Source of the DNA: Tolypothrix sp. PCC 7910
Lineage (GTDB): Bacteria > Cyanobacteriota > Cyanobacteriia > Cyanobacteriales > Nostocaceae
Length of the DNA stretch: 64,000 bases
Direction: 5' to 3'
Assembly (NCBI RefSeq): GCF_011769525.1
Contig: NZ_CP050440.1
Location: 559,501 to 623,500, forward strand
A program made the position numbers and the translations under genes. Under the pieces are notes generated by a model that saw only the letters and a program-made list of their open reading frames with translations, had not been told where the DNA came from and did not search any database. Positions 2,820 to 50,153 of this stretch are shown here, in pieces (within the stretch, counting starts at the first letter, position 1; each line of letters begins with the position of its first letter).

Positions 2820-2830
2820 CCAAAAATTGA

Positions 2831-2913
2831 AGAGACGCGATTCATCGCGTCTGTTGGAGAGATGCGATTCATCGCGTCTGTTGGAGAGATGCGATTCATC
2901 GCGTCTGTACAAG
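2831..2913. repeat. Three tandem palindromic short repeats (STRR-like)
   Basis: Three tandem copies of a unit of about 27 bp whose core GACGCGATTCATCGCGTC is a palindrome apart from its centre (second and third copies begin GATGCG). It sits 12 bp after the cysteine synthase stop and can form stem-loops. A single related unit lies after the DUF5331 gene. Confidence 0.8.
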
Positions 2914-2935
2914 AGTCAAAAATAATTAATTATCT

Positions 2936-2974
2936 TCCCAATCCCCAATCCCTAATCCCCAATCCCCAGTCCCC
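2936..2974. repeat. CCCCAAT heptamer array ending at a start codon
   Basis: Five or so degenerate copies of the 7-bp unit CCCCAAT/CCCCAGT, ending directly against the ATG of the [2Fe-2S] protein gene, so no normal ribosome-binding site is present there. Confidence 0.8.
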
Positions 2975-3304: not shown

Positions 3305-3359
3305 ATCTGTTTTAAAAATATCAAGTCTGCACTCTTTGTTGACTTAAGTGAGGAAGCCA

Positions 3360-4190
3360 ATGAACATTCAGCAGCTACGTCAATCATTGAAAATGAAGTG
3401 GCTGAGTTATTACGAACAAAACCGGCCCTGGTTAGTAAAAATGCGGATTTGGGCTACTTATGATGGTCTGCGCCGACCTTCATCTGGTTTTATGTTGGCT
3501 ACTCTGTCTGTGTTAGAACCAGAGTTTGATCAGATACTTGGTTTTATTATGGAGCTAAATAATAACCCTGATCAAATAATTAGGGCATTGGGTCTTAACT
3601 TCAATCCTGATGAAGAATTAGATTTAATTAATCAAGAGGATTATATTGTTTCTGACCAATTTTCTGCTGAACCTTTAGAGGAAATTCAGGATAAATTGCA
3701 GCCTGTATTATTAGCTACTGATAATTTAGAAGTGACTTCCGAATCTCCTACAAGGGTATTAAATTCCGAACCGTTCCTGAGCGATCGCACCCCAACCAGA
3801 ATTGCTGTACCATCTTTTACGGTAACTAATGGCGTAGTTCGCGATCGCCAACCGGAATCATCAGTTGCAGTGGCTACGGCGGTGAGTCGAGAATCAACCG
3901 CGACAACGCTAGTTGCTAAAAAACCCACGGATGAGATTTTACAACCACAGCAAATAGAGCCGCTAGCCCAGCCTACCGAAGTATCTGTCAATGAAAAAAC
4001 ACTGCAATCTCTTGGTCTCAATATCAAGCGTCCTAGCAATGGTAATTCCCTAAAGGTGCAATTACCACCCATACCTAAGAAAATAAAACTTTCGCATACA
4101 AGTAATGCCAGTACTGTATCTTCTTGGGTAGATGAGTTCTGTCAAGGTGCTGATTGGAACCCAGAAGAAGCTATTTTTATTCATTTTTGA
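3360..4190 (+). CDS. DUF5331-type cyanobacterial protein
   Basis: A 276-residue protein. The first 90 residues (LKMKWLSYYEQNRPWL, then GLRRPSSGFMLATLSVLEP, then LGLNFNPDEEL) match what I know of the cyanobacterial DUF5331 domain. The rest is low-complexity and probably disordered, rich in Ser, Thr, Val and Pro, with a short ordered C-terminus (WVDEFCQGADWNPEEAIF). I chose ATG 3360, which has GAGGAA 4-9 bases before it, over an in-frame GTG at 3348. HIP1 sites occur inside the linker. Function unknown; no catalytic motif is visible. Confidence 0.75.
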   Translation: MNIQQLRQSLKMKWLSYYEQNRPWLVKMRIWATYDGLRRPSSGFMLATLSVLEPEFDQILGFIMELNNNPDQIIRALGLNFNPDEELDLINQEDYIVSDQFSAEPLEEIQDKLQPVLLATDNLEVTSESPTRVLNSEPFLSDRTPTRIAVPSFTVTNGVVRDRQPESSVAVATAVSRESTATTLVAKKPTDEILQPQQIEPLAQPTEVSVNEKTLQSLGLNIKRPSNGNSLKVQLPPIPKKIKLSHTSNASTVSSWVDEFCQGADWNPEEAIFIHF

Positions 4191-4200
4191 AAAGAGTCAA

Positions 4201-4229
4201 AGAGACGCGATTAATCGCGTCTGTACAAG
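4201..4229. repeat. Single palindromic short repeat (STRR-like)
   Basis: Core GACGCGATTAATCGCGTC is a perfect palindrome followed by TGTACAAG, the same family as the three units after cysteine synthase. It lies 11 bp after the DUF5331 stop and may serve as its transcript end. Confidence 0.75.
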
Positions 4230-4393
4230 GGAGACGACAATCCCCACAATAAAAGCCAAAGGAATAGTCACCAGTCCAGGATTTTTAAAGGGGAAAGGTG
4301 CTGTCGCGTGCTTGAGGATTGTGACTTGGATGGTGGGAGAGAAATAAATCAGCACTAAAGTAATACCTTAGCCAAAAAACGAGTATGAAGAGA

Positions 4394-4434
4394 TAGTCCA
4401 GGTATAGCACTAATCGTTGCTATACCCGGACTAT
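4394..4434 (-). terminator. Hairpin overlapping the stop codon of the hybrid kinase gene
   Basis: Read on the minus strand, the stem is ATAGTCCGGGTATAGC pairing with GCTATACCTGGACTAT across a 10-base loop: 16 pairs including one G-U. The kinase TAG stop lies inside the first arm. No strong U-run follows directly (a T6 occurs about 15 bases on), so it may be a terminator, an mRNA-stabilising stem or both. Confidence 0.5.
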
Positions 4435-8695: not shown

Positions 8696-8783
8696 GTCGC
8701 TTTGCTCCAGTTCAAAATAGCACTTTCTTTAGGGCTTGTAACCACCACCTAGAGGTCTGTCTCATTAATTTTGCGGGGTTGCG

Positions 8784-8815
8784 AGATATCCGACTTCTTT
8801 AAAAAGTCGGGTATC
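8784..8815. terminator. Hairpin repeat between stressosome genes and kinases
   Basis: AGATATCCGACTT pairs with AAGTCGGGTATCT around a short AT loop. Related hairpins with GACTTCTT...AAGTCGG are common in this lineage (another lies after the Rieske oxidoreductase gene near 17097). No T-run follows, so terminator function is uncertain. Confidence 0.4.
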
Positions 8816-8942
8816 TGAACACCTTAACCTTTCCGAAATTAATGACATGAACCACACTAGAAGCACTACTGAATTTTAATTGATTATTCCTTGTGAGTGC
8901 TGCTCATGGAGTCTCTTGCAGAAAGAATACAATCTCAAGGTG

Positions 8943-9014
8943 GAAGCTCTTACAAGCTGCGCGAAACACGGAAACGTGAAGACAGAAGCTCTTACAGGGA
9001 AGGCAGAAGCTCTT
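8943..9014. repeat. Three direct copies of GAAGCTCTTA
   Basis: The decamer GAAGCTCTTA occurs at 8943, 8985 and 9005. The open frame of 67 codons across it has no family signature and is not called as a gene. The following GACTTCCAGAAAATAAATTA stretch has a relative near 30195. Confidence 0.5.
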
Positions 9015-9092
9015 AGGGACTTCCAGAAAATAAATTATCCCATTTACTCAGATAATATTTTTCTTTCTCCCCCTGCCCCCTGATTTGTAATA

Positions 9093-9172
9093 CCAATTTG
9101 AAAAAAGAATGCGACAGTAGGGGCAAGGCATTGCCTTGTCCTCTAGAATAATTGATGTGTCGCAAACACTAT
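9093..9172. mobile_element. MITE-like element, copy 1 (right end degenerate)
   Basis: It starts CCAATTTGAAAAAAGAATGC next to TA, runs through a GGGGCAAGGCATTGCC hairpin and ends in TGTGTCGCAAACA, but lacks the final TATTTGAATTGG seen in the complete copy at 9666. It is an accessory repeat with no coding capacity. Confidence 0.65.
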
Positions 9173-9245
9173 AGCGGTTATCGGTTGAGTCCACACACTC
9201 TTAAGGGCACGGCAGTGCCGATGCCCCTACAATCTGTCTGACATT

Positions 9246-9653
9246 GTGTAATTAATTTTGTGTAACTACTTATTCACCTGCGTAGGCGTTGGCGTAGCCT
9301 CTCGTAGAGAAGCCCGCCGTAGGCATCGCAAACTCGCCAACAACAGAAGCCACTATCGTTAAGACAGTAGCGGCTATTCTCAACTCAGTAGTGGCTATTC
9401 TCAACTCAGTAGCGGCTTTCCTCAACTCAATAGTGGCTATTCTCAACTCAATAGTGGCTTTCCTCAACTCAATAGTGCCTATTCTCAACTCAATAGTGGC
9501 TTTCCTCAACTCAGTAGTGCCTATTCTCAACTTAATAGTGGCTATTCTCAACTCAATAGTGGTTTTCCTCAACTCAATAGCGGCTTTCCTCAACTCAATA
9601 GCGGCTTTCCTGATGTTTCCTACCTCTTGTTTTTGCCTGTCGCCTTCTTAAGA
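9246..9653. repeat. Composite repeat carrying 21-bp tandem units, copy A
   Basis: About 400 bp, also present in inverted orientation near 34175-34565. It begins TAATTTTGTGTAACTACTTA, contains a GTAGGCGTTGGCGTAGCC segment, then eleven 21-bp units (9367-9597) of the form GTGGCTATTCTCAACTCA, and ends CCTCTTGTTTTTGCC. Because 21 is a multiple of 3, several frames stay open. One plus frame reads A(I/F)LNS(I/V)(V/A) heptads and one minus frame reads TIELR(I/K)A heptads. I do not call either a proven gene. Confidence 0.75.
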
Positions 9654-9665
9654 TGAGTAATTATA

Positions 9666-9755
9666 CCAATTTGAAAAAAGAATGCGACAGTAGGGGCAAG
9701 GCAATGCCTTGCCCTCGAGAATATATTGATGTGTCGCAAACATTATTTGAATTGG
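9666..9755. mobile_element. MITE-like element, copy 2 (complete, 90 bp)
   Basis: A complete copy flanked on both sides by TA. The left end CCAATTTGAAAAAAGAATGC and the reverse of the right end CCAATTCAAATAATGTTTGC form an imperfect terminal inverted repeat that converges on TGCGACA. The centre is the hairpin GGGCAAGGCAATGCCTTGCC. There is no coding capacity. CCAATT ends beside TA are also seen on the IS630-type element at 59200. Confidence 0.75.
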
Positions 9756-9840
9756 TATAAGTAGGGAACTCTTAACAGGGAACAGGCAAGAACCATATAC
9801 TTATATGCATAGCGGTGAAAATTTTTTCATTGGGACTGCC

Positions 9841-10845
9841 TTAACTGCCCATTCCTTTAGCTACTAACACCGTCACATCATCCCGCTCTCGGTTAAAGTC
9901 TCGGTATAAGACACCTGCAATCAGGCTGGGATGTTTTTGACTCAAGCCAGGATAGCGATCAAGCTGCCACTTACTATCTAATCCATCAGAATGCATAATT
10001 AAAAGTCCGTTGGCATACCAAGGGTAGCTAAACTCTTGAATTTTGCGGATTTCATGTCCGACAGTGCCGTTGCGAGACAGCAGATGGTGGCGGTTAGTCA
10101 AGGAGAAAATGCTGGCGGCGATATTGCCAATTCCGGCAAAGCGGACAGACTGTTGCTCAAAGTCAATTTCGGCAATGGCGAGTGCCGCTCCTCGCGTACT
10201 TCGCAAGGCGGCGTGGGCAGCTTGGACGATCGCACCAGGAGAGTGATCGTGTTCTTGAAAAATTCTTACGGCTTTTGCAGCAGCAGTGGCTGCCGCAGGC
10301 CCATGCCCTAAGCCATCGGCTACTAACAACAGGCTGCGGCAATTATCCATTTGACATGCCCAGGCATCTCCGGAAACGTCCTCCCCGCGTTTGGGCAAAC
10401 AGATCGCCCCAATTTCTAAGGTCTTTTGGGGCAAATGAGGTGTCGAATCTGACCAGAGGTGAGCGAGGAGCGCCGTCCCTTTGTTGGGAATCGAGTAAAT
10501 TTCAAATAAACCAGACAGGCGGCGAATTGCGCCCAGTCCATTGCCTAAGGTTCCGGCTGTGGAAAAGCCATCTTGCAAACACTCATCCACATCGACCATT
10601 CCCCGTCCTTTATCTAGTGACAAGACTTCAATACCGATGACTGAATTGTGTTCGATCAATCTTAACAACAATACTCCACCCTGACCGTGCTGGATCAGAT
10701 TACTCGCAATCTCTGTCACCACAATGCCAACTCTGCCCCGTTCCGTATCCTGAAAACCGAGGCGAGTTGCTAAAGCGATCGCTATGCGTCGGGCTTCGCC
10801 GGTCTGGCTAGATTCAGTAATCGAAATGGCAACAGATTCTAGCAT
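9841..10845 (-). CDS. ATPase-SpoIIE fusion, RsbX-like phosphatase of stressosome module
   Basis: A 334-residue protein. Residues about 1-130 are a GHKL ATPase of the anti-sigma type (VTEIASNLIQHG, DKGRGM, LGNGLGAIRR). Residues about 140-334 are a PP2C/SpoIIE-type Ser/Thr phosphatase with metal-binding aspartates in EDVSGDAW, LLVADGLGHG, MHSDGL and RDDVTVLV. In stressosome systems RsbX removes phosphate from RsbS and RsbR and resets the complex; the fused ATPase may dock it. The start is ATG 10845, one base after the preceding rsbT stop, indicating coupling. An in-frame upstream extension of 42 residues lies within rsbT and looks like shadow sequence. Confidence 0.85.
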   Translation of the reverse strand: MLESVAISITESSQTGEARRIAIALATRLGFQDTERGRVGIVVTEIASNLIQHGQGGVLLLRLIEHNSVIGIEVLSLDKGRGMVDVDECLQDGFSTAGTLGNGLGAIRRLSGLFEIYSIPNKGTALLAHLWSDSTPHLPQKTLEIGAICLPKRGEDVSGDAWACQMDNCRSLLLVADGLGHGPAAATAAAKAVRIFQEHDHSPGAIVQAAHAALRSTRGAALAIAEIDFEQQSVRFAGIGNIAASIFSLTNRHHLLSRNGTVGHEIRKIQEFSYPWYANGLLIMHSDGLDSKWQLDRYPGLSQKHPSLIAGVLYRDFNRERDDVTVLVAKGMGS

Positions 10846-34895: not shown

Positions 34896-37800
34896 TTAAA
34901 CAAAGATTGCACTGCCATTTAATGGTGCGAATGCATCTGTAATTACAGATAATTTACCATTACTATACACACTTACATCTAACAGTCCATCGCCATTGGA
35001 ATCACTGAATTGGTTTGTGGTAAAGTTGGGGAGAATTCCGGAAATTCTTTGGGATGAAACTGAAGTTAGTTTTGCAACTTGTCCGCCAATTGAAACTTCA
35101 GTATTTCCTAAGTTACCAAAGTTTTTACCGCCAATCACAAATGTATTACCACCTGCTGCTGGTGCCCTCCAAGGGAAGATATCATAAGCAGTAGTATCTA
35201 CTATGTAAAGATCATCCGGAATCGCAGCGGTAATTACATTATCAGCATAATCAATACCGAGAATCGCACCTCCAGGCCCAGTTACTACACTTAAACCATC
35301 TGCTACAGGAGAATCAGCATTGAGAACTGTATTTTTGATAACTTGTGTCCCATCTGCTGATAAAGTTACGCTGTAGAGTTTTTGATTCCATTGCTGTGCA
35401 ATTAAATTGCCACGCAATTGGCCTTGGAAGGTTGTTGCACGATATTCATCAATGCCATTAGTTGAAGAAGCAAAAGTTGTGAGTGGCGCTGTATAAACAC
35501 CAGGAATGCTTGGTTTATCTGGCCCATAAAAAACATTTTGGCGATCGTCAGTGCGTCCACGATTGCGGTTAGGAGAACCGTAGTATTCACCTTTTTTGAT
35601 CAGGTTTAGTTCATCTGGCGCACCGGGTGCAGGGATAGAAGTTGTAGCTGAGGTAGAAAGTTCTCCAAAGCCTGGGTTATGACCATTATCAGTAGCATAA
35701 AGCAATCCTTTGGTAGTAAAAACTGCGCCAAAGGGATTACGCAGCCCACTTGCATATACTGAAACGTCGCTACCCGGTACAACATTGGCAACATCACCAA
35801 ATGCTTGACTATCTGCGGGATTAAAAGTTAATCCTGATGGGATTTCATAACCTGGTGGTAGCGGATTTTGTAGAACATATTTGATAGCACCCTTGAAGCC
35901 AAGTTTGGAAATCTCCGCTTTTAAGATAGCCGCAGACAAAGGCGATTCTGGTAAACCACCTATATTGTCATTGGTAACCCCAGCATTAGTATTACTACCA
36001 ACATTGATGTATAAATCGCCTTTTTGATCGAATGTTAAAGCATTGATCCCGTGGTCTTGATTGGAAGTTGGTAGGCCTGTGACTAAAGCTGTCAAGTTGG
36101 AGAAATTCGGCCCATCTAATATGGAAACTTGACCGCTATAAAATGACTGTTCTGTTTTTGGAAATGCACCACCACCGTTGCCATAAAGCCTTGTATGGGC
36201 AACGTAAATACTGGGAGAACCAGATTGATCGTAAGGGTTAAAAGCAATACCCAATATGTTTGGTTTATTACCAGCTTTGTCCTTTATTGTGGTGATGATT
36301 TGGGTATTGGTAACATTGTACTTTTCATCAAAGGTATAAGCTCTGATTTCACCACTGTAAGTACCTACATACAATCTACCATCTGGCCCCCAAGCTGCGG
36401 TTGAGGGCGCACCTATTGACGCTACTGTTTTCTTAGTGAAGCTGATGGCAACAATATCATTATCGTTGACAGTGACAGGGAGTTCTGGAATGGTGAGATT
36501 TTGATAGTTGCTATCTGTGGTGGAGATAGTATGAGAAATAGTAAGGTTTTCGATACCTTGGGCTATTTTGTCATCAACTACATTGACAGTTACCGTTTGG
36601 GGAACATTCCAGTTAGCAGGAGTAAAGGTCAGGCTAGTCTTGTCTGTAACTAAGCGATCGCCTTTAACTACATTAATGGTGACATTTGTTGTCGGTTGTG
36701 TATTCAGAACTAATGAATAACTATCACCAGCACCTCCTTCTGTAACCTCAGTTCTACCTTGTGTTTGTTGCAAAATCACCTGAGGGCCAGTGAGTGGTAT
36801 GATTTCTAGCCCAGAGAGGAGAGCATTGTTAACGCTGGCATCCAAATTAAGATTCAGCTTGCCATCGCTAACACTCACAGTAGGCACAGATAGTACTAGC
36901 GCTGAGTTATTCCCCGTGAAGAACGCATTTTTAGATTGTTTAAAAATGTCTACGTCAGAGAATACCTTCTGACCTTCTATAGAAACATCAAAGATGCGGT
37001 CATTAAAGTCAGTGAAATAATTCTCAGCAAAGTGCAGATTTACTCTGTAGTTACCAGCGGCTACGGGAATCTCGTAAGCCAGGTTTTGTGCATATCGATC
37101 ATCTCGATATATAGGATCATCTTCTGTCTTACCAATTTCCGCAGTGGTGGTATAGATGTTACTGTCACCAACCACATATTGCGTTTGATCTGCATCCCAC
37201 TTGTTACCTTTGGTATCAGTGTAAGCTGGGCCACCTACATTGATCCGAATGGCTCCTGGTGTTGGGGTTGGGGTTGGCGTGGGTGTGGGTGTGGTGGCTG
37301 GAGTAATTTCAATCCCGTTGATGATGGCATTGTTGACACTGGCTAAGAAATCTAAATTCAGTGAGCCATCAGCGACTTTGACATTAAAGGACTGATCTAT
37401 AGCGATGTTCTTGCCACCTGCAGCTTTAAAAACATCTAAGTCGTCAATTTTTAGCTGATTTTCAGCACTTACATCAAAGACACGTTTTCCCGCTTCAGCC
37501 CAGTAGGTTTCGGAAAACTTGAGCTTAACTGTGTAGTCGCCGTTCTCAACGGGAATGGCATAGGAAAATTTATTTAACCAACGTAGGTCTTGATAAATAG
37601 GGTCTTCAACAGTATTAGCGATCGCAGATGTTATCTCATAGGTGTTACCGACATCAAAATAATTATCTGCACTCCAAACATTACCTTGGCTATCGGTATA
37701 AGCCTTACCACCTGCGTTAATGCGAATTGTCTTGCCTGTTGGCGTGGGTGTGGTGGCTGGAGTAATTTCAATCCCGTTGATGATGGCATTGTTGACACTG

Positions 37801-38672
37801 GCTAAGAAATCTAAATTCAGTGAGCCATCAGCGACTTTGACATTAAAGGACTGATCTATAGCGATGTTCTTGCCACCTGCAGCTTTAAAAACATCTAAGT
37901 CGTCAATTTTTAGCTGATTTTCAGCACTTACATCAAAGACACGTTTTCCCGCTTCAGCCCAGTAGGTTTCGGAAAACTTGAGCTTAACTGTGTAGTCGCC
38001 GTTCTCAACGGGAATGGCATAGGAAAATTTATTTAACCAACGTAGGTCTTGATAAATAGGGTCTTCAACAGTATTAGCGATCGCAGATGTTATCTCATAG
38101 GTGTTACCGACATCAAAATAATTATCTGCACTCCAAACATTACCTTGGCTATCGGTATAAGCCTTACCACCTGCGTTAATGCGAATTGTCTTGCCTGTTG
38201 GCGTGGGTGTGGGTGTAGGAGTTGTACCTACAGGAATGATTTCAATCCCGTCGATTTTGGCATTGTTGATACTAGCCAAGAAATCTAAATTCAGTGTGCC
38301 ATCAGTGACTTTAAGCTTAAAAGACTTGTCCAAGGCGATGTTAATACCGCCCGCTTCTTTAAAAATATCCAAGTCATCAATGACTAACTGATTTTCGGCT
38401 TTCACATCAAAGACGCGTTGTCCAGGTTCAGTCCAGAAGAGTTCGGAAAACTTGAGCTTAACTGTGTAGTCGCCGTTCTCAACAGGAATGGCATAGGAAA
38501 ATTTATCTAACCAACGTTCGTTTTGATAAAGAGGATCTTCAACAGTATTGGCGATCGCTGCAGTTGTACTATATACGTTACCGCCAGAAAAATAATTATC
38601 AGCTTCCCAGAGATTACCCTGGGTATCGGTGTAAGCTGCACCACCTGTATTGATTCTCCGGATGGTAACCAT
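34896..38672 (-). CDS. Giant surface/secreted protein: four malectin-like domains, Calx-beta-like, dehydrogenase-like propeller, TIG
   Basis: 1,258 residues. Four malectin-like carbohydrate-binding domains (about 1-150, 161-310, 314-465 and 478-630) share the pattern IRINAGGKAYTDSQGN...ADNYFDVGN. A Calx-beta-like segment (about 635-745) follows, then a six-bladed propeller of the glucose/sorbosone dehydrogenase type (about 750-1150; VYASGLRNPFGAVFTTKGLL), and a C-terminal IPT/TIG domain (about 1165-1250). Domains 2 and 3 are identical. Pro-Thr linkers join the malectins. There is no Sec signal; the first domain starts at the N-terminus. The relative at 23227 shares the propeller. A likely role is extracellular glycan binding or oxidation; the substrate is unknown. 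Confidence 0.82.
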   Translation of the reverse strand: MVTIRRINTGGAAYTDTQGNLWEADNYFSGGNVYSTTAAIANTVEDPLYQNERWLDKFSYAIPVENGDYTVKLKFSELFWTEPGQRVFDVKAENQLVIDDLDIFKEAGGINIALDKSFKLKVTDGTLNLDFLASINNAKIDGIEIIPVGTTPTPTPTPTGKTIRINAGGKAYTDSQGNVWSADNYFDVGNTYEITSAIANTVEDPIYQDLRWLNKFSYAIPVENGDYTVKLKFSETYWAEAGKRVFDVSAENQLKIDDLDVFKAAGGKNIAIDQSFNVKVADGSLNLDFLASVNNAIINGIEITPATTPTPTGKTIRINAGGKAYTDSQGNVWSADNYFDVGNTYEITSAIANTVEDPIYQDLRWLNKFSYAIPVENGDYTVKLKFSETYWAEAGKRVFDVSAENQLKIDDLDVFKAAGGKNIAIDQSFNVKVADGSLNLDFLASVNNAIINGIEITPATTPTPTPTPTPTPGAIRINVGGPAYTDTKGNKWDADQTQYVVGDSNIYTTTAEIGKTEDDPIYRDDRYAQNLAYEIPVAAGNYRVNLHFAENYFTDFNDRIFDVSIEGQKVFSDVDIFKQSKNAFFTGNNSALVLSVPTVSVSDGKLNLNLDASVNNALLSGLEIIPLTGPQVILQQTQGRTEVTEGGAGDSYSLVLNTQPTTNVTINVVKGDRLVTDKTSLTFTPANWNVPQTVTVNVVDDKIAQGIENLTISHTISTTDSNYQNLTIPELPVTVNDNDIVAISFTKKTVASIGAPSTAAWGPDGRLYVGTYSGEIRAYTFDEKYNVTNTQIITTIKDKAGNKPNILGIAFNPYDQSGSPSIYVAHTRLYGNGGGAFPKTEQSFYSGQVSILDGPNFSNLTALVTGLPTSNQDHGINALTFDQKGDLYINVGSNTNAGVTNDNIGGLPESPLSAAILKAEISKLGFKGAIKYVLQNPLPPGYEIPSGLTFNPADSQAFGDVANVVPGSDVSVYASGLRNPFGAVFTTKGLLYATDNGHNPGFGELSTSATTSIPAPGAPDELNLIKKGEYYGSPNRNRGRTDDRQNVFYGPDKPSIPGVYTAPLTTFASSTNGIDEYRATTFQGQLRGNLIAQQWNQKLYSVTLSADGTQVIKNTVLNADSPVADGLSVVTGPGGAILGIDYADNVITAAIPDDLYIVDTTAYDIFPWRAPAAGGNTFVIGGKNFGNLGNTEVSIGGQVAKLTSVSSQRISGILPNFTTNQFSDSNGDGLLDVSVYSNGKLSVITDAFAPLNGSAIFV
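37285..38212. repeat. Perfect tandem duplication within the malectin gene (459-bp period)
   Basis: Bases 37285-37753 and 37744-38212 read the same wherever compared, offset by 459 bp (153 codons). This duplicates one whole malectin domain plus its TTPTPTGKT linker. Confidence 0.85.
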
Positions 38673-40194: not shown

Positions 40195-40564
40195 TTTTAA
40201 ATCTAAAATCTAAAATTGGTATAAGCGATCGCTCTTGCAAGAAGAACTAAAAGAGGGATAGTGCATCAGCTAAAAGTCATCAAGCAGCAATCATTACAGC
40301 CGCTCAAGAAATCGCTGATTTCTACTCTGAGGTAATTTGGTAGCTTGTTGAAAGCAGGAGAAACACCCTCATGACATTTTCGACCCAACGCATAATACCA
40401 TGAAACTAACCACAGAACAAATTTTGAAAGGAGGCTGAAAGTTATTGCCATAAAGCAATTCCTAGAGCCTGAACTTTGACATTTACAAGAATATGGGTAG
40501 TTGAATTTTGATAAAAATATCCTCAGTTTATTGGAGTTAAATATAAAAATATCGGGTATTGGAT
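40195..40564. other. Intergenic region, no gene
   Basis: 370 bp. It contains an AAATCTAAAATCTAAAATTG short repeat, one HIP1 site and gene-like fragments with no intact frame (for example 12 codons from ATG 40399 preceding TGA). Possibly a decayed small gene. Confidence 0.35.
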
Positions 40565-43500
40565 TTATTTATTCTTTAGCAACTCCTCTACTTCCTCAGC
40601 TTTTTCCTGTAAATCCAAGTCTCGATAAATTTGCAGACTTTCAGTTAAAAATTGGGTAGCAATTGCGTCAGCATTAGCTTGATTTTGCTGTGTACGTTTT
40701 AGATATATTTCACCTAAAAGCTTCCTTGCTGATGCTTCCAGTGTGCGGCGGTTGTAATTTTGAAAAATTTGCAAACATTCTTGGGCAATTTCTTCGCTAC
40801 GTTCAATGTTTTCTATAACTTCCACCTCTAGGTAAGCACGGGCTTGTTCAAGAGCCTTATCTGCTCTATCTACTGTTTGTCCTAGTTCCTCAAAATAAGT
40901 TAAGCCCCTATTGTAGTATTCCTCGAATTTGATAATTTGTTCTTGTATTGATAAAGAATCGCTAGGTAAAATTCTTAGGCGTTGTGAATAGAGAAAGCCA
41001 AAAGTAGTATAGTCATAGGCAAGATTTTCTTTGTATTCGCCTACAGTATTTATTTCTATAGCTTGATAAATATTTTGTGTAGCTTGTACCAAGAAATTAG
41101 ATGTTTCTATTAAATTAGAAGTATCTTTTGCTAATAAAATTTGACAGTAAGCAAGTTGCCGATAACGTCTAGCTATAATTTCATCTTGATCTAGTTTTTG
41201 ATGTAAATCAAGACTTTGTTGGTAGTAGTTAATAGCTTCTTCATATTTACCCCAGTTTTGATATATCCTTCCTAATCGCCAGTAAGCACTAGCAATATTA
41301 ACTTGGTCATCTAACTGCTGCCGAATTGCTAATTCTTGATTTTGGTACTCAATTGCTTGCTGATACTTTCCCCATTCTCTATAGCAATCTACTAGCCAGG
41401 ATAACTGATTTGCTACATTTTTTTCTCGACCTAATTGTTGATAAAGTTCTCGACTTTGTTGGTAGTAGTTAATAGCTTCTTCATATTTACCCCAGCTTTG
41501 ATATATCCTTCCTAGCTGAAAGTAGGCACTGCCTATACTGACTTGGTCATCTAACTGCTGCCGAATTTCTAAATCTTGGTTTTCACTCTTAATTGCTTGT
41601 TGATATTTTCCCAATTCTCGATAACAACTAGCTAAGTTATACCACTGACTTGCTACATTTTGTTCTCGACCTAATTTTTGGTATTTTTCTCGGCTTTTTT
41701 GGTAGTAGTTGATAGCTTGTTCATATTTACCCCAGCTTTGATATATCCATCCTAGCTGAAAGTAGGCTCTAGCAAGATTAACTTGGTCATCTAACTGCTG
41801 CTGAATTGCTAATTCTTGATTTTGGTACTCAATTGCTTGCTGATATTTTCCCCATTCTCGGTAGCAATCAGCTAGGTTATACAACTGATTTGCTACATCT
41901 TTATCTTGACTTAATTGTTGATAAAGTTCCTGGCTTTGTTGATAATAGCTAATCGCTTGTTGGTATTTACTCCAGCTTTGATATATCCTTCCTAATCGCC
42001 AGTAAGCACTAGCAATATTAACTTGGTTATCCAACTGCTGCTGAATTGCTAATTCTTGATTTTGATACTCAATTGCTTGCTGATATTTTCCCCATTCTCG
42101 ATAGCAATCAGCTAGGTTATACCACTGATTTGCTACACTTTGTTCTCGACCTAATTGTTGGTAAAGCTCTCGGCTTTGTTGAAGGTAGTTAATCGCTTGT
42201 TGGTATTTTCCCCAGCTTTGATATATCCATCCTAGCTGAAAGTAGGCTCTAGCAAGATTAACTTGGTCATCTAACTGCTGCCTAATTGCTAATTCTTGAT
42301 TTTGGTACTCAATTGCTTGCTGATACTTTCCCCATTCTCGATAGCAGATGGCTAGGTTATACCACTGATTTGCTACACTTTGTTCTCGACCTAATTGTTG
42401 GTAAAGCTCTCGGCTTTGTTGAAGGTAGTTAATCGCTTGTTGGTATTTTCCCCAGCTTTGATATATCCATCCTAGCTGAAAGTAGGCTCTAGCAAGATTA
42501 ACTTGGTCATCTAACTGCTGCCTAATTGCTAATTCTTGATTTTGGTACTCAATTGCTTGCTGATACTTTCCCCATTCTCGGTAGCAATTAACTAGCCAGG
42601 ATAACTGAATTGCTACATTTTGTTCTCGACCTAATTGTTGGTAAAGTTCTCGGCTTTGTTGGTAGTAATTAACAGCTTGTTCGTATTTACCCCAGTTTTT
42701 ATAAATCAATCCTAGCTGAAAGTAGGCATCAGCAAGATTAACTTGGTCATCTAACTGCTGCCTAATTGCTAAATCTTGGTTTTCACAATCAATTGCTTGC
42801 TGATATTTTCCCCATTCTCGATAGCAAATGGCTAGGTTATACCACTGACTTGCTACACTTTGTTCTCGACCTAATTGTTGGTAAAGCTCTCGGCTTTGTT
42901 GATGGTAGTTAATCGCTTGTTGGTATTTTCCCCAGTTTTGATATATCCTTCCTAGCTGAAAGTAGGCTCTAGCAAGATTAACTTGGTCATCTAACTGCTG
43001 CCTAATTGCTAATTCTTGATTTTGGTACTCAATTGCTTGCTGATACTTTCCCCATTCTCGATAGCAATCAGCTAGGTTATACCACTGATTTGCTACACTT
43101 TGTTCTTGACCTAATTGTTGGTAAAGCTCTCGGCTTTGTTGAAGGTAGTTAATCGCTTGTTGGTATTTTCCCCAGCTTTGATATATCCATCCTAGCTGAA
43201 AGTAGGCTCTAGCAAGATTAACTTGGTCATCTAACTGCTGCCTAATTGCTAATTCTTGATTTTGGTACTCAATTGCTTGCTGATACTTTCCCCATTCTCG
43301 GTAGCAATTAACTAGCCAGGATAACTGAATTGCTACATTTTGTTCTCGACCTAATTTTTGATAAAGTTCTCGGCTTTGTTGGTAGTAATTAACAGCTTGT
43401 TCGTATTTACCCCAGTTTTTATAAATCAATCCTAGCTGAAAGTATGCACTAGCTATATTAACCTGGTCATCTGACTGCTGCCTAATTGCTAAATCTTGGT

Positions 43501-46500
43501 TTTCACAATCAATTGCTTGCTGATATTTTCCCCATTCTCGATAGCAATCAGCTAGGTTATACCACTGACTTGCTACACTTTGTTCTCGACCTAATTGTTG
43601 GTAAAGTTCTCGGCTTTGTTGATAATAGTTAATTGCTTGTTGGTATTTTCCCCAGCTTTGATATATCCATCCTAGCTGAAAGTAGGCTCTAGCAAGATTA
43701 ACTTGGTCATCTAACTGCTGCCTAATTGCTAATTCTTGATTTTGGTACTCAATTGCTTGCTGATACTTTCCCCATTCTCGGTAGCAGCTAGCTAGGTTAT
43801 ACCACTGACTTGCTACATCTTTATCTCGACCTAATTGTTGGTAAAGTTCTCGGCTTTGTTGATAATAGTTAATCGCTTCTTCATATTTACCCCAGCTTTG
43901 ATATATCCTTCCTAATCGCCAGTAGGCACTAGCAATATTAACTTGGTCATCTAACTGCTGCCTAATTGCTAATTCTTGATTTTGGTACTCAAGGGCTTGC
44001 TGATACTTTCCCCATTCTCGATAGCAATCAACTAGCCAGGATAACTGATTTGCTACACTTTTTTCTCGACCTAATTTTTGATAAAGTTCTCGACTTTGTT
44101 GATAGTAGTTAATAGCTTCTTCATATTTACCCCAGCTTTGATATATCCTTCCTAGCTGAAAGTAGGCACTGCCTATACTGACTTGGTCATCTAATTGCTG
44201 CCTAATTGCCAAATCTTGGTTTTCACACTCAACTGCATGCTGATATTTTCCCCATTCGCGATAGCAATCAGCTTGATTATACCACTGATTTGCTACATCT
44301 TTATCTTTACATAATTGTTGGTATCTCTCCCGGCTTTGTTTATAGTAATTTGTCGCTTGCTCATATTTCCCACATATCTGATAAGTGACACCTATATGAT
44401 ATAAAGCTAATGATTGTTTTTGAGGTTTATTAATCTCTCTACTAATAGCCAACATTCGCTGAAAACACTCTAAAGCTTGATCATACTTATTATTTAACCT
44501 GTGGCAAACACCTCGATTTTGCCAAAACATCAGAAAAGCAGATGGCTCAATATATCTAGTCAGTTTTTCAAAGCATTCTTGATAATAGTCTATTGCTTGT
44601 TCAAATGCCTCTTTCTCTTGATAACAGATAGCTAAAGACCAAGCTATATAAGCGCTGAAGTTACTATCTGGCTTATCTTTTATGTTCATAAACAGATCAA
44701 TAGCTTGATCATATTTATCTTTGCGAACATAAGACATTGCTATGAAAAAATTTAATGCTTTATGAAAACCTTGCTCAGTATTACTAAATTTACGACTGCT
44801 TTCAAGAGCAGGTGTTATTTCCTCTCCCAATTCTCTCACTAAATCTCTAATACTACAAAATAGTGTAGGTTCTAATTGCTCAATAATTTCGTTAACATAA
44901 TCAACTAATCCTGTGTATTCCCCACAAGCAATATAAAACATCGCTGTTTTTGCTTTGACACGTATTTCTTCAGAGAGTATTGAGTTATGAGCAGCTTCTT
45001 TTAATATGGCTATGACTTCAGATTTTTGATAAAAAGCTTCAATTTTGCGTAATATTCTCAAGAATTGCTTAGTGATGTCATCATCAAAATCAGCATCTAA
45101 AACGAGATAAGTAATCACTAACTTTTGAAGCAGCTTTTTCCGAATATTATTAACTTCAACTTCTGTAATTACCTGTCCTGCAAACAACAAATCTGTTAGA
45201 CTAAACTCACATTCTATCAAGTTATTTGCTGATTCAGATTCTGGCTTTAGGTAGATGATAATTTTATGCTCAGATGATGGATTTTTTATTTTTATTTTGC
45301 CATATCTTAGCTCAGGTTGATAATTATCTAAATTGCTGAATAGTTTTTCTAGTAGCTTCTTAACTTGTGCTGGAGAATGAATGCCGTAATAACCTAAAGC
45401 CAATAAAATTGGTTCATTCCAACGTGGCTCATGGAGATGTTTTTGAATCAATTGCAGAATCTCACTTTGCTCATTATCTGCAATATAACGAGCAGCAAAG
45501 TACTCTTCAAAGGTTAGATGCATAAAACCATAAACCCCAGGTGTTCTTTCTACAAATAAACCTGTGGTTTCTCGGACTTTACGCAAAAATTCTTCTACTG
45601 CCTGACGCACAGAATTTGATTCTGGTTCAGCATCATTCAGTTCCGCTAGCTTGGCTGCAAGTTTCTCTTCTACTTCTGCCTGTGTCACTAAACCAGAAGG
45701 CTTTTCTTCATGCATCCAGTAAGCCAAAGGTGCTAAAAGTAGCACTACCTCTGTTTCTTTAAGTACTACCTTTGGTGCATCAGGTAACTTTTTACTAAGC
45801 TGCCAATCTTCTGTTAAAGTTTGCACCGCTAACTCGTACAATTTCACTCGGCGATTTGGTAACCGTTCACCATTACGGTGAATCAAAGCCAATATTGTTA
45901 ACAGCAAGGGGTTTGCTGTTAAACGTTTTACACCCTCGTTGTCTTCAATAGCTTGAATAATACTCTGGGCTTGCTCATCTCCCCGTCTTTGCCATTGCTC
46001 CTCACTTGCATCTGGCTGCTGTGCTTTTTCCACCGTTCGACACCAACGATACAGGAACTTCTCTACCTGTTCGCTGTTCATATCTTCAATGGTAAACTCT
46101 GCAAAGCGACTGCTTAGTTGTACATCACGGTAGCCAGCAATGCGGCTTGTAATTACAAATTTATTGGCAGAAAATTGATCAACAAACTGATTAATGCGTT
46201 CTACAATCTGTCTGCGGCTTTCTTGATCAAATACTTCATCTAATCCATCTAGCAACATCAAGCACTGTCCTTGGTGCATTGCATCTAATAGCAATGCTAC
46301 TACCTCAGTTCCTATTTCTACCTGTGCTTGAAAATGTGCTTCCCACTGGCGATAGAATTGGCGTAGATATTCCAGTAAAGTTAACTCTGGTTGCTGTTTA
46401 AGCTTCTCTGCATAGTCAGCAATCCGGAAGAAAATTGGTAACAAAGTTTTACCTAATTCTTCATTTTCTTCGCCAACAATGACTATTTCTTGATTATCTC

Positions 46501-47434
46501 TTTTCGCTTGAGCAAAATGTAATGCTAAGTAGCGCAGTAGTGTAGTTTTACCCGCACCAGGAGCGCCTAAAATCACGCTATAGGCATTTTCCCGTACCGC
46601 CTGAGATAAATCCACTTTCTGCGTCACAGTTTTGCTAGTTGTCACAGATATTAAATTTTCTGTGATTGGTTCATAATAGTAGGGTTCATCCCAATCATCT
46701 AAAGTAAGACTTGTTTCCTTAAATTTAACGCGTTCACGAGATTGTAATATATTTACAGCTACTGTTTCGCGTTGACTACGTTCAGAAGTTTCTGTAACTT
46801 CTTGTCGCCATTGTGCCTGCAGGGATACATAAACTTGGTCTAAAAAAATATCAACTTGGCGATTAACCTGCATTACGCCACTCATTTTTAGATAAGAATT
46901 CTCGGCAATTAGCCACTCTAAATAAGAATAAAGTAAGGGATTACGAGTTTCAAACTGTACTACCTTTGCCCGCCAATCCCAAAAATCTGGTGCGCGGTTA
47001 CGAAATTCATCTAAAAATTGAATTGTATTAACCCAAAAAATTATGATTAAATTTCTACCAAATAGCTCTTCTCTACCTAAATTCAACCGCTGCATTTCTT
47101 TTACTAAGCGCGGTGTAGGTAATTGGTCAATGCCAAAAGCCATGACTAATTTGCGCTTAGCTTGGGAGTTTTGCAGCTGATTATTATCTAAACTGTAAAG
47201 AAAACTATGGAACGAATCATCACTATAAAAAAATGTGTAATGTGGCTGAACAATGTCTTCACTACTCTCTAAACACTCATTTAGCTTTCTAACAACGGGA
47301 TGTTGAGGGCTACTCTCTGGCGCAATAGCTAAAATAATTGTTGTGCCATTAGAAATTTCTAATACACTGACTAATTTCTCTAATTCTTCTTGGTCAGTTT
47401 CGCTCAGAGAATAGGGAGAGTCTTGAGAAATCAT
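40565..47434 (-). CDS. Giant STAND protein: FWxxAPDFWxWR N-terminal domain, NACHT NTPase, long TPR array
   Basis: 2,289 residues. Residues about 1-190 form an NTPase-like front domain ending in LIIIFWVNTI...RAPDFWDWRAKVV, a motif common in bacterial TPR proteins. A NACHT domain follows: Walker A GAPGAGKTT near 290, Walker B LMLLDGLDEV near 392, then VITSRIAGY and an alpha-helical winged/HEAT-like segment to about 900. Tetratricopeptide repeats (Y..AI.YY.QS...) fill about 900-2100; the inner 13 double units are almost identical. A short non-repeat tail closes it. STAND proteins switch on ATP hydrolysis when a ligand binds the repeats. The next gene upstream, 46 bp away, encodes a second P-loop ATPase, so the two probably act together, perhaps in defence or signalling. 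Confidence 0.85.
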   Translation of the reverse strand: MISQDSPYSLSETDQEELEKLVSVLEISNGTTIILAIAPESSPQHPVVRKLNECLESSEDIVQPHYTFFYSDDSFHSFLYSLDNNQLQNSQAKRKLVMAFGIDQLPTPRLVKEMQRLNLGREELFGRNLIIIFWVNTIQFLDEFRNRAPDFWDWRAKVVQFETRNPLLYSYLEWLIAENSYLKMSGVMQVNRQVDIFLDQVYVSLQAQWRQEVTETSERSQRETVAVNILQSRERVKFKETSLTLDDWDEPYYYEPITENLISVTTSKTVTQKVDLSQAVRENAYSVILGAPGAGKTTLLRYLALHFAQAKRDNQEIVIVGEENEELGKTLLPIFFRIADYAEKLKQQPELTLLEYLRQFYRQWEAHFQAQVEIGTEVVALLLDAMHQGQCLMLLDGLDEVFDQESRRQIVERINQFVDQFSANKFVITSRIAGYRDVQLSSRFAEFTIEDMNSEQVEKFLYRWCRTVEKAQQPDASEEQWQRRGDEQAQSIIQAIEDNEGVKRLTANPLLLTILALIHRNGERLPNRRVKLYELAVQTLTEDWQLSKKLPDAPKVVLKETEVVLLLAPLAYWMHEEKPSGLVTQAEVEEKLAAKLAELNDAEPESNSVRQAVEEFLRKVRETTGLFVERTPGVYGFMHLTFEEYFAARYIADNEQSEILQLIQKHLHEPRWNEPILLALGYYGIHSPAQVKKLLEKLFSNLDNYQPELRYGKIKIKNPSSEHKIIIYLKPESESANNLIECEFSLTDLLFAGQVITEVEVNNIRKKLLQKLVITYLVLDADFDDDITKQFLRILRKIEAFYQKSEVIAILKEAAHNSILSEEIRVKAKTAMFYIACGEYTGLVDYVNEIIEQLEPTLFCSIRDLVRELGEEITPALESSRKFSNTEQGFHKALNFFIAMSYVRKDKYDQAIDLFMNIKDKPDSNFSAYIAWSLAICYQEKEAFEQAIDYYQECFEKLTRYIEPSAFLMFWQNRGVCHRLNNKYDQALECFQRMLAISREINKPQKQSLALYHIGVTYQICGKYEQATNYYKQSRERYQQLCKDKDVANQWYNQADCYREWGKYQHAVECENQDLAIRQQLDDQVSIGSAYFQLGRIYQSWGKYEEAINYYQQSRELYQKLGREKSVANQLSWLVDCYREWGKYQQALEYQNQELAIRQQLDDQVNIASAYWRLGRIYQSWGKYEEAINYYQQSRELYQQLGRDKDVASQWYNLASCYREWGKYQQAIEYQNQELAIRQQLDDQVNLARAYFQLGWIYQSWGKYQQAINYYQQSRELYQQLGREQSVASQWYNLADCYREWGKYQQAIDCENQDLAIRQQSDDQVNIASAYFQLGLIYKNWGKYEQAVNYYQQSRELYQKLGREQNVAIQLSWLVNCYREWGKYQQAIEYQNQELAIRQQLDDQVNLARAYFQLGWIYQSWGKYQQAINYLQQSRELYQQLGQEQSVANQWYNLADCYREWGKYQQAIEYQNQELAIRQQLDDQVNLARAYFQLGRIYQNWGKYQQAINYHQQSRELYQQLGREQSVASQWYNLAICYREWGKYQQAIDCENQDLAIRQQLDDQVNLADAYFQLGLIYKNWGKYEQAVNYYQQSRELYQQLGREQNVAIQLSWLVNCYREWGKYQQAIEYQNQELAIRQQLDDQVNLARAYFQLGWIYQSWGKYQQAINYLQQSRELYQQLGREQSVANQWYNLAICYREWGKYQQAIEYQNQELAIRQQLDDQVNLARAYFQLGWIYQSWGKYQQAINYLQQSRELYQQLGREQSVANQWYNLADCYREWGKYQQAIEYQNQELAIQQQLDNQVNIASAYWRLGRIYQSWSKYQQAISYYQQSQELYQQLSQDKDVANQLYNLADCYREWGKYQQAIEYQNQELAIQQQLDDQVNLARAYFQLGWIYQSWGKYEQAINYYQKSREKYQKLGREQNVASQWYNLASCYRELGKYQQAIKSENQDLEIRQQLDDQVSIGSAYFQLGRIYQSWGKYEEAINYYQQSRELYQQLGREKNVANQLSWLVDCYREWGKYQQAIEYQNQELAIRQQLDDQVNIASAYWRLGRIYQNWGKYEEAINYYQQSLDLHQKLDQDEIIARRYRQLAYCQILLAKDTSNLIETSNFLVQATQNIYQAIEINTVGEYKENLAYDYTTFGFLYSQRLRILPSDSLSIQEQIIKFEEYYNRGLTYFEELGQTVDRADKALEQARAYLEVEVIENIERSEEIAQECLQIFQNYNRRTLEASARKLLGEIYLKRTQQNQANADAIATQFLTESLQIYRDLDLQEKAEEVEELLKNK
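41200..44350. repeat. 240-bp tandem repeat array encoding paired TPRs
   Basis: About 13 units with a constant 240-bp period (80 residues, two TPRs each). The minus strand reads GKYQQAIEYQNQELAIRQQL then AYFQLGWIYQSWGKYQQAIN. Several units (for example those starting near 42181, 42421 and 43141) are virtually identical. The exact copy number in an assembly should be treated with care. Confidence 0.9.
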
Positions 47435-47480
47435 ATAAAATCCCAGTGTATATATAAATAGTTGTTAATGAGATATATGG

Positions 47481-48782
47481 TTATGAAATATTATTAGCAG
47501 CTTGCCAGCGTCGTAAATCCTCTATAATAATCGGATTAACATCAAACCAAGGTTCCTGATCTGAATTGTAGTACCCCAAGACTAACTTATTTTGCAAAAG
47601 CTCATCACAAATAATAAATTCACCCCTGTTAGGTAAGCTATGGGTCTTGGTTGTTAACTTTCCATTGCGATGTACAAAATCAAGCTCAGGATAATGATAG
47701 TCATTTAAATTATATTCTCTACGAACTTCTTGCACTGCTTTTTTTGCAGTTTCTAAATCTATAAAAAGTAATTTCTTTTGTAAACCTATTTCACAAGCAG
47801 TACGCGCTAACCGTACTAAATCTCGCATCACACCACCGCTTTTTTCACACATGAGCGCTATAGCATCAGGGTTGATTAATCCTTTATAACTATCACCTAA
47901 TATAGAAAGACGTTTATTAACTACATTATTCAGGATATTTCTACCCTCTTGATGAGGTTCAGCGGTCGGGCGTAAATTTTCATCACATTGAAAAACAGGT
48001 GGATTATGTAAATCTAAACATTTCTGAAAACTTTCCATCGGCTGACGAAAGTTAGGTGAATATCGCAGAGATATAGGAATAGAATAAATAATATGACAGT
48101 TAATTTCTATCAACAACGGGCTAGAAAACATTTCTAAAGCGGTTACTATGTCATGCCTATCTAACCCATCAACAATAATCAGCATTTTTTTTCTTGTTTC
48201 TTTTTCAGCCGCTTCAATAATATTGTTAACTCGGCTAATAATTTCACTTAATAAAGGACGAACATTAATAGTTTTTGTAACTTCTCTTGTTAACCCACGT
48301 TTAAGAATTAATCCTGCCTTTTCTATAAATTCTGGCATCCCTAAACTTTCAGTCTGGCTACCTTTATCTTGATAAACTACTGTTTTTAGGCTATCTTTTA
48401 AAGCTGCTAATAACTTATCTTTATTAAATAACCAATTAGATTTAATCGCTTGACTAGCAATTTCTAACCCAATCAATACCACTACTTCTGCATAGCCTAT
48501 ATTGTAACGATCCAAGGCTGTTTGCGTATCAATCCAGATAACCTTATAGCTGTTGTTTAACTGTTGTTGTAGTCGCCGGAGTTCTGTTGTTTTCCCCCCA
48601 CCCCGATGACCTGCTAGCAAAAATTTTGCAGGATCATCTTCCATTTCTAGTAAACTGACAAGCTGATCTACAGGGCTATTATCTCTCGGCACATAAAAAT
48701 TTTGTAATTCTTCTGGGGTTGCAAGAGGTTCCTCTGGCTTGAATAACTGATAAGCAGTTTTCCAGAAATTTGTATTACTCAT
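47481..48782 (-). CDS. P-loop ATPase (AAA+/STAND-like) paired with the giant TPR protein
   Basis: A 433-residue ATPase. Walker A GHRGGGKTTELRRL near 58-71; Walker B MLIIVDGLDRHD near 202-213; later helical region ALMCEKSGGVMRDLVRLAR typical of AAA+/STAND lid domains. The N-terminus (FWKTAYQLFKPEEPL) and C-terminus (DLRRWQAANN) are conserved-looking but uncharacterised. No nuclease, TIR or membrane domain is visible. Its stop is 46 bp before the giant protein's start on the same strand, so the two are almost certainly one operon. It may prime or regulate the TPR protein. Role inferred. Confidence 0.8.
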   Translation of the reverse strand: MSNTNFWKTAYQLFKPEEPLATPEELQNFYVPRDNSPVDQLVSLLEMEDDPAKFLLAGHRGGGKTTELRRLQQQLNNSYKVIWIDTQTALDRYNIGYAEVVVLIGLEIASQAIKSNWLFNKDKLLAALKDSLKTVVYQDKGSQTESLGMPEFIEKAGLILKRGLTREVTKTINVRPLLSEIISRVNNIIEAAEKETRKKMLIIVDGLDRHDIVTALEMFSSPLLIEINCHIIYSIPISLRYSPNFRQPMESFQKCLDLHNPPVFQCDENLRPTAEPHQEGRNILNNVVNKRLSILGDSYKGLINPDAIALMCEKSGGVMRDLVRLARTACEIGLQKKLLFIDLETAKKAVQEVRREYNLNDYHYPELDFVHRNGKLTTKTHSLPNRGEFIICDELLQNKLVLGYYNSDQEPWFDVNPIIIEDLRRWQAANNIS

Positions 48783-48902
48783 ACTCTTAATAACCCAGAA
48801 GACGAGATTTTATGAAAATACTAAATTATTGTAGTATATCTGACTACTACTAAATTAGTTGGATTTACTTGATAAAGTAAATACTGGAAGCAGATATCAA
48901 CA

Positions 48903-50153
48903 TCATTCCATTGCCTGAATCTGCTGATTCGCTGCTGTTTGCGCTCTTATCATTGCTTGCTTTAATGGCTGCTGACCCAATAAAGCGCTAATAAATTGGT
49001 TATCAAAATTATTGACAATTGCTGCTGGATATTTGCCAGCTTGCCAAGGTGTAGCATAGGAGACACCACTAACGAAAGGCGATCGCAAGGGGTCTTTGTC
49101 ATAGCCTAATTTCTCAGCTACAGATTTCCGTGTGGGGAGTGCAAACCCTGTCCCAGTCCACTTTTGCATCCCTTGTTTACCTGTGAGATAAGAAATTAAT
49201 TCCCAAGCTTCAGCTTTATGTTTGGCTTGTTTATTCATTACATAGGCAACTGTAAACACCATAGTGTTATTTTTACCATTAATTGTAGGTATCTCTGCGG
49301 TGGCGAACTCTAGTTGAGGAAAGGTTTCTTGCAAATAAGGAATTGCCCAATTACCTTCAATTACCATTGCTACCTTACTCTGACCAAACATTTCACTACC
49401 GGAGTTTGTTCCCACATCAGATTTTTGAGCAGAGGAACGGTCTTTTTGATACTGATCTATGACTAACTGCAATCCTTGTAAGCCTGGTTCACTAGCAAAG
49501 GTTGCATAATCATTTTGATTAATAATTTGTCCACCAAAGGCTTTGATTTTATAAGCTTGACGCGCTAATTCTGGAATTTCCCCAAAGCCATATTTGTTGA
49601 GTTTACCTGTTAATTTCTCAGAATAGCTGCGTAATTCTTCCCAAGTGCTGGGAGGCTTACTCAAAGCAACCTCAGCAAAAGCTTTTTTGTTGTAAAACAG
49701 CGATAAAGTGGAATAATCTTTGGGAAAACCGTAAATTTGATTCTGGTACTTGAAGCTATTGAGTAGGTTAGGTTCAAAGTCTGCTAAATCAAATTCCGGA
49801 GTGATATAAGTATTTAAAGGTTCGAGGACGTTTTGACTCATAAAGAAAGGAGCCTCTAGCGCATCGAGATAGAAAACATCGGGTGCAGCTTCTCCCACCA
49901 AGCGGGTTTTGATAACGTCCATGTATTGGTCTGAAATGACCTCATACTTGACTTTAATCTTAGGGTGCTGTGCTTCAAAGTCTTTTAGTACCTGCTGTAG
50001 CAGCTTTTGTTCCACAGGATTACCTCCCCAACCACTAAGTTTGACAGTAACTCTTGTGGATGCGCTCGGTAGTGTTAGACTGTGGCAACTAATAATTGCG
50101 ATCGCGATCGCAATTACCAATCCCCAAAACTTGAACCAACTATTTCTAATCAC
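48903..50153 (-). CDS. ABC sugar-type extracellular solute-binding lipoprotein
   Basis: A family 1 solute-binding protein of about 416 residues from GTG 50153 (MIRNSWFKFWGLVIAIAIA). The signal peptide is followed by a lipobox-like IISC. Fold markers: VKLSGWGGNPVEQKLLQQVL, DVFYLDALEAPFF, GFPKDYSTLSLFYNKKAF, MVIEGNWAIPYLQ and ELISYLTGKQGMQKW. Substrates in the family are oligosaccharides or glycerol phosphates. Overlapping HIP1 sites (GCGATCGCGATCGC) encode the hydrophobic core of the signal peptide. The matching permease and ATPase genes are not in this window. An alternative TTG 50195 start extends into short tandem repeats and is unlikely. Confidence 0.85.
   Translation of the reverse strand: MIRNSWFKFWGLVIAIAIAIISCHSLTLPSASTRVTVKLSGWGGNPVEQKLLQQVLKDFEAQHPKIKVKYEVISDQYMDVIKTRLVGEAAPDVFYLDALEAPFFMSQNVLEPLNTYITPEFDLADFEPNLLNSFKYQNQIYGFPKDYSTLSLFYNKKAFAEVALSKPPSTWEELRSYSEKLTGKLNKYGFGEIPELARQAYKIKAFGGQIINQNDYATFASEPGLQGLQLVIDQYQKDRSSAQKSDVGTNSGSEMFGQSKVAMVIEGNWAIPYLQETFPQLEFATAEIPTINGKNNTMVFTVAYVMNKQAKHKAEAWELISYLTGKQGMQKWTGTGFALPTRKSVAEKLGYDKDPLRSPFVSGVSYATPWQAGKYPAAIVNNFDNQFISALLGQQPLKQAMIRAQTAANQQIQAME

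Follow-up and report, generated by a model that had tools for sequence, protein, structure and literature searches.

Two adjacent genes of Tolypothrix sp. PCC 7910, lying within the 64,000-nucleotide stretch of DNA that was analysed here (the window), encode an ATPase with the motifs GHRGGGKTTE and LIIVDGLDRH and a giant NACHT-TPR protein (genes A and B, Table 1). The open reading frames and Pfam matches bore out a preliminary description of the two genes with regards to their sizes, spacing and domain contents, and the APDFWDWR motif that it had placed in the front domain of B, here called ND, could be located there. Pfam recognised a NACHT domain in B (PF05729, 42.4 bits at a cut-off of 26.7) together with many TPR families (TPR_12, E = 5.5e-197), so that B has the combination of NACHT domain and repeat array that defines a NACHT STAND protein, whereas PADLOC gave only a generic TPR match. 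No catalytic domain besides NACHT was found in the A-B pair using Pfam, and neither GT4 nor HEPN was seen on B at E ≤ 0.001 among the matches listed (25 of 27 families).

Table 1. Features at the locus of the A-B pair, numbered from the first nucleotide of the window
Feature	Position	Strand	Description
Gene A	47481..48782	-	433 aa; predicted AAA+ ATPase of the ORC/STAND type, winged-helix-like region at the C-terminus
Gene B	40565..47434	-	2289 aa, ATG start; ND-NACHT-TPR protein (ORF, Pfam)
A-B spacer	47435..47480	-	46 bp
Walker A of gene A	48585..48611	-	residues 58-66, GHRGGGKTT
ND	46940..47434	-	B residues 1-165; predicted AAA+ core lacking Walker A; putative adaptor
APDFWDWR motif in ND	46970..46993	-	B residues 148-155
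NACHT domain of B	46040..46579	-	residues 286-465, PF05729, E 8.2e-11
TPR region of B	40565..44557	-	residues about 960-2289 (Pfam)
Similar 240-bp (two-TPR) units	41214..44368	-	13.1 copies (Tandem Repeats Finder)
Segment with the A-B pair	40228..48904	n/a	absent at the corresponding site of close congeners
Probable remnant of PIN/VapC-like gene	40270..40343		read by eye; gene longer here in congener G002

The repeat array of B showed 86% matches between its units in Tandem Repeats Finder. When 13 units of the window were compared using a custom motif, their mean mutual identity was 79%, as against 57-71% to the units of six orthologues (eight orthologues were tried, two of which gave no units, and two of the other six had only two units each). 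Since the window units are more alike among themselves than they are to those of the orthologues, the array seems to have been renewed by duplication within the lineage.

Gene A gave weak Pfam matches to nSTAND_NTPase5, KAP_NTPase and AAA_16 (E values from 1.6e-6 to 3.6e-4) and weak, scattered matches with PADLOC. In an alignment of the A family the Walker A motif GxxxxGK[ST] was kept in 65 of 66 rows, with R291 invariant and R320 near-invariant, both being candidate arginine fingers by sequence. The predicted fold has an AAA+ core, a lid and a winged helix in the ORC/Cdc6-like arrangement, and is similar to structures of ORC and TnsC, some of which were solved with DNA. Judged from its conserved residues and modelled fold, A is predicted to be an active ORC/STAND-type AAA+ ATPase. 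The family was found in 6 of 72,556 plasmid records; the possibility of A being a phage gene was dismissed, as none of 50,697 phage records gave a match.

In the close congeners G003 and G004 the genes for Uma2 and a solute-binding protein, which flank the pair in the window, lie 73 bp apart. In G007 their distance is 120 bp, and the flanks share 93-96% identity with those of the window. Such empty sites between near-identical flanks show that the A-B pair was gained or lost as one segment. At the same spot G002 has a VapBC-like pair (by eye), the end of which persists in the window as a remnant, G005 and G006 have other genes, and G001 retains one flank only. A defence island around the pair could be rejected, as Pfam scans of 12 proteins flanking it in the window revealed no recognised defence system. 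These proteins belonged mostly to transport, carbohydrate and metabolic families; the nearest to defence was Uma2 ('putative restriction endonuclease'), and they also included an ABC ATPase that in addition matched AAA_21. MoxR and vWA domains were not found in A, B or these 12 proteins. Elsewhere in the window (34896-38672) lies a protein with malectin repeats and similarity to glucose/sorbosone dehydrogenases, with repeated congener matches that suggest a changing copy number.

Pairing of A with ND within and across genomes

Searching the own genome with A gave five further ATPase genes, each followed by a partner gene whose N-terminus aligned with the first 170 residues of B around the motif LNxxRE...W...APDFWxWR, despite differing bodies. 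With profile searches, all six ATPase genes of the genome were found to adjoin an ND gene, out of 10 ND genes in all; the four without an ATPase neighbour were two stand-alone versions (164 and 210 aa) and two genes of 1831 and 737 aa. The partner bodies were TPR only at two loci (L048, L051); at two others (L047, L050) they had WD40 and, judged by eye, a middle part resembling TPR and nSTAND1. Four of the six sets were uninterrupted, with insertion elements breaking the partner gene in L049 and the ATPase gene in L051. Three of the five loci with paralogues (among L047, L048, L049 and L051) share the same split transposase, which disrupts the L049 partner; the L051 ATPase gene is split by a different insertion.

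For comparison across genomes, loci were collected with the A alignment alone, using the best 80 of 467 relatives, which makes the collection no census. It covered cyanobacteria, Chloroflexi, ANME and other archaea, Acidobacteria, Phycisphaerales, Gammaproteobacteria, Lachnospiraceae and others. After exclusion of four loci at contig ends (L070, L090, L120, L128) and one with no intact ATPase frame (L102), an ND gene was found behind A on the same strand at 73 of the 75 testable loci. The distance from the end of A to the start of the ND gene was -128 to +1104 bp in these 73 loci from the best 80, many of the genes overlapping. The exceptions were L065, with its ND gene upstream of A, and L059, which has an in-frame stop in A and no B in the 2.2 kb up to the contig end. 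The ND model behind this count was partly trained on the same loci; an independent model, built from the window and L037-L056 only, gave linkage at 69 of the 75 loci at E ≤ 1e-5, 70 at 1e-3 and 58 at 1e-10, again within the best 80 of 467. At 1e-5 this independent model matched 73 of 1064 ORFs, 69 of them at the expected place behind A. The pairing of A with ND thus recurs elsewhere far beyond chance.

Co-occurrence pointed the same way. In 117 cyanobacterial genomes sampled evenly over the phylum, the own genome included, 32 had A (E ≤ 1e-15) and 33 had ND (E ≤ 1e-6); all 32 A-bearing genomes also had ND, and the one extra ND genome was 73% complete. The distances of A and ND were correlated over 52 loci (Mantel r 0.911, 0 of 2000 permutations as high), a figure to which shared descent contributes; this test was made without L065, L109 and L136, and a 53-locus version using the extra upstream ND of L109 gave r 0.906. 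The check on co-occurrence and gene order put forward in the preliminary description consequently identified a conserved unit. Close orthologues of A (at least 55% identity) were spread in a patchy manner, being present in 10 of 117 other relatives searched, eight of them with ND and NACHT behind A. The other two were L041, in which A is broken by a stop and lacks an adjacent B, and L046, located at the end of a contig, where A is split over two frames. As L041 and L059 are apparently one record, counts from the orthologue search and the 80-locus collection were not summed. A tandem arrangement was seen at G135:C20:3385-8015, having two A-family matches followed by two ND matches, the latter maybe in one 1258-aa frame.

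The ND domain and its exchangeable bodies

For an alignment of ND, 68 matches of at least 20 bits were reduced to 63 non-redundant sequences, from which L058, L065 and L084 were removed and to which the window was added, giving 61 rows. A Walker A motif was present in none of these 61 sequences. The predicted fold of ND is an AAA+ core with strand 5 at residues 155-160, and the best conserved positions included D150 (60/61), R121 (60/61) and A148 (59/61). R155, found in 45 of 61, opens strand 5, which is the place of the arginine finger in ORC-type ATPases, and it may have that role here. An acidic residue past strand 3, possibly a remnant of Walker B, was seen in 47 of 61, and we describe ND as being without Walker A, not as being without nucleotide binding. 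Profile comparison of ND with A gave no significant similarity (hhalign probability 4.6%), the sole alignment pairing the regions of Walker B and the next strand. When the 61 sequences were scanned with Pfam at E ≤ 0.1, no model covered ND and no described inactive-STAND family was matched; PADLOC matches were weak and scattered, and the best match in a sequence search of the PDB was a chain named PLZ2.3 (E 7.9e-5). Taken together, residues and model lead us to propose that ND is an AAA+ domain that lost its Walker A and serves as an adaptor.

The preliminary description had considered that an effector might reside in the N-terminal domain of the large protein. The structure predictions it advised were made, and returned AAA+ folds for both the N-terminus of B and the ATPase. 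ND as an effector enzyme was abandoned in view of that fold, with no Pfam family found in more than two, and no PADLOC family in more than one, of the 61 sequences. This bears on the alternative that B is an autonomous protein of the Avs or bNACHT kind, carrying its effector in ND, with A merely co-transcribed. Such a reading would agree with the layout of NACHT and repeat sensor in B and with the four ND genes of the own genome that have no ATPase neighbour, but it conflicts both with an ND that is predicted to be an AAA+ fold lacking Walker A and is not a recognised effector enzyme, and with the linkage at 73 of 75 loci (best 80 of 467 relatives) and co-occurrence in 32 of 32 genomes, and we regard it as very improbable.

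To sample the partner bodies, 15 proteins outside the subfamily of the window were picked for variety and scanned with Pfam. One was a TPR-CHAT fusion (L107, CHAT E 4.6e-43), one had the order DUF4062-NACHT-FGE (L116), two had WD40, and the other eleven had mainly TPR-type repeats among the matches listed. NACHT, emphasised in the preliminary description, can consequently not be the defining part, being listed for one of these 15 partners among at most 25 Pfam families per protein. That the same A-ND core occurs with TPR alone, WD40, CHAT or FGE suggests that ND acts as a plug. At the archaeal loci L073 and L074 a CHAT gene lies directly upstream of A. The L137 protein resembled an A-CHAT fusion by eye but is not counted as one, as neither Pfam nor NCBIfam detected CHAT there, the CHAT match being in a separate nearby gene (E 9.1e-16). 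In that locus (2457-9851) the A paralogue has a long, unassigned extension at its C-terminus, and its neighbours are genes that by eye look propeller-like and Hsp70-like, as well as the CHAT gene (Pfam).

A different association was found in the Nostoc sp. C057 plasmid p057_J (L176, NZ_CP040291.1, 6105-11278), in a VMAP-MoxR operon that includes an A orthologue. This orthologue, 70% identical and with Walker A intact, makes up the C-terminal half of a fusion protein that matches SAV_2336 N-terminal (NF041121, E 1.1e-161) and is vWA-like by eye. The fusion gene is preceded by genes for an ATPase annotated as MoxR and for VMAP-C (PF20028, E 1.1e-33). ND was not found in the 21 kb around the operon, A thus being without ND in this case. 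Further genes on this piece of the plasmid are annotated as CHAT, FGE and XcyI restriction genes. According to the passages of Kaur et al. (2020, PMC7159879) on such ternary systems, STAND NTPases, chiefly AP-ATPases, are among their domains.

The p057_J fusion, together with a fold like those of ORC and TnsC, some solved with DNA, and with the finding by Pfam of no catalytic domain other than NACHT in the window pair, is consistent with A itself being the output, in that an ATPase or nucleic-acid-binding activity freed by B would harm the cell or the invader. The position of A at the C-terminus of the SAV_2336-type protein might then reflect such an output, or else a decoy copy. We hold this possibility to be tentative, as the fusion is a single instance and both toxicity and DNA binding of A are putative; it could be combined with the switch that we favour below.

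Neighbouring genes gave a more varied picture, with no family common to all of 79 loci upon clustering and the largest clusters comprising 10 and 8 loci. Related genes, one example being kinase-like by eye, lie within 6 kb of A in eight of the 79 loci (L057, L058, L077, L078, L084, L087, L097, L105). In the Chloroflexi loci L106, L109 and L136 there are response-regulator-like genes (by eye) near the pair, with a 7TM histidine kinase (Pfam) in L136. These three also have an extra upstream ND gene and small MraZ-like genes (by eye), possibly as a two-component version. In L052, L053 and L055 a TPR-only paralogue lies at or near ndhCKJ-like genes (by eye), and one branch may be a housekeeping switch. 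MalT-type STANDs are regulators. All four observations, on response regulators and histidine kinase, kinase-like genes, ndhCKJ-like surroundings and MalT, are in line with the main alternative to our interpretation, namely that the module works as a general switch in signal transduction or regulation, for stress, development or metabolism instead of defence, with NACHT-TPR as one sensor among many. Weighing somewhat against it are the all-or-none presence of the window pair as a single segment, with flanks 93-96% identical on either side, its patchy spread over 10 of 117 other relatives, and the CHAT, FGE and VMAP-MoxR fusions, each of which is compatible with regulation too. We consider this alternative less probable, yet worth serious attention.

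Likeness to described systems

No description of the pair was found in the open-licence literature that was searched, although the clade of A may have been named earlier (Npun2340/2341 family, Leipe et al. 2004). The closest likeness in kind is to nSTAND2, presented in the relevant passages of Kaur, Burroughs and Aravind (2021, PMC8195603) as a predicted mobile two-gene system in which an active and an inactive ATPase form a hetero-multimer. Here, too, one active and one inactive STAND-type ATPase, as judged by Walker A and predicted folds, are encoded in adjacent genes. The inactive partner of nSTAND2 has variable domains, GT4 or HEPN being the commonest in those passages (PMC8195603), whereas the bodies found here are TPR, NACHT-TPR, WD40, CHAT and FGE. 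Arginine fingers are described for both nSTAND2 proteins; in the present pair R155 and R121 of ND and R291 and R320 of A are candidates by sequence. Membership in nSTAND2 was rejected, as PF20702 matched genome-wide only G000:C1:7713853-7714332, which is neither the pair nor any of its paralogues.

The same source counts at least three kinds of inactive STAND, and, as far as its passages and those of PMC12839542 go, iSTAND and iSTAND2 (MoxR-vWA) and BrxB/BrxF (BREX) similarly have inactive STAND- or ORC/Cdc6-type domains that serve in defence systems beside an active AAA+ protein. The partner here is a small ORC/STAND ATPase and not MoxR or BrxC, and ND heads repeat proteins. With Avs and other bacterial NACHT proteins, as treated in part of PMC10907252, B shares NACHT and a C-terminal repeat sensor, but it differs in having a separate ATPase gene instead of a recognised N-terminal effector. 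The ternary VMAP-MoxR systems, as outlined in parts of PMC7159879, are touched by the A orthologue ending the SAV_2336-type protein of one such operon, while no MoxR or VMAP gene was seen among the flanking window proteins scanned. The preliminary view of the pair as an undescribed defence or sensing system accordingly stands in part: the pair is a conserved unit with no match in the libraries and literature searched and has relatives tied to CHAT, FGE and VMAP-MoxR, but NACHT does not define it.

A putative ATP-dependent switch

We consider it rather probable that A and B form an ATP-dependent switch, with a heteromeric assembly of A and ND at its core and the TPR array of B as its sensor, likely sensing invasion or damage with cell fate as output. 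B would dock on A via ND in a physical complex. Because ND lacks Walker A but often has an arginine at the finger position, it could complete the ATP site of A, and that arginine would then act in trans within the hetero-oligomer, as in ORC or the predicted nSTAND2 pairs. The TPR array, renewed by tandem duplication, would sense a ligand, the binding of which would open NACHT and so drive assembly of the A-B complex. Invasion or damage sensed in this manner may finally be turned into a cell-fate decision; the case for a defence role of the pair is plausible but indirect.

More broadly, there may be an even chance that the pair represents a modular, inflammasome-like platform of bacteria and archaea, having a hetero-oligomeric core composed of the active ORC/STAND ATPase together with a dead, ORC-like adaptor, to which every genome would plug several different sensors and outputs such as TPR, NACHT-TPR, WD40, CHAT protease or FGE. 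If so, ND would be a further lineage of inactive STANDs besides iSTAND, iSTAND2 and the nSTAND2 partner. It is a domain having no Pfam model, found in 33 of the 117 sampled cyanobacteria and also at loci of archaea and of several further phyla. The pairing shows that there are long TPR and WD40 proteins which are members of a fixed pair with an ATPase, thereby turning annotations such as 'TPR repeat protein' into a testable switch, and the pair may offer a simple system for studying how dead ORC-like ATPases become reused as adaptors in immune-like machines.
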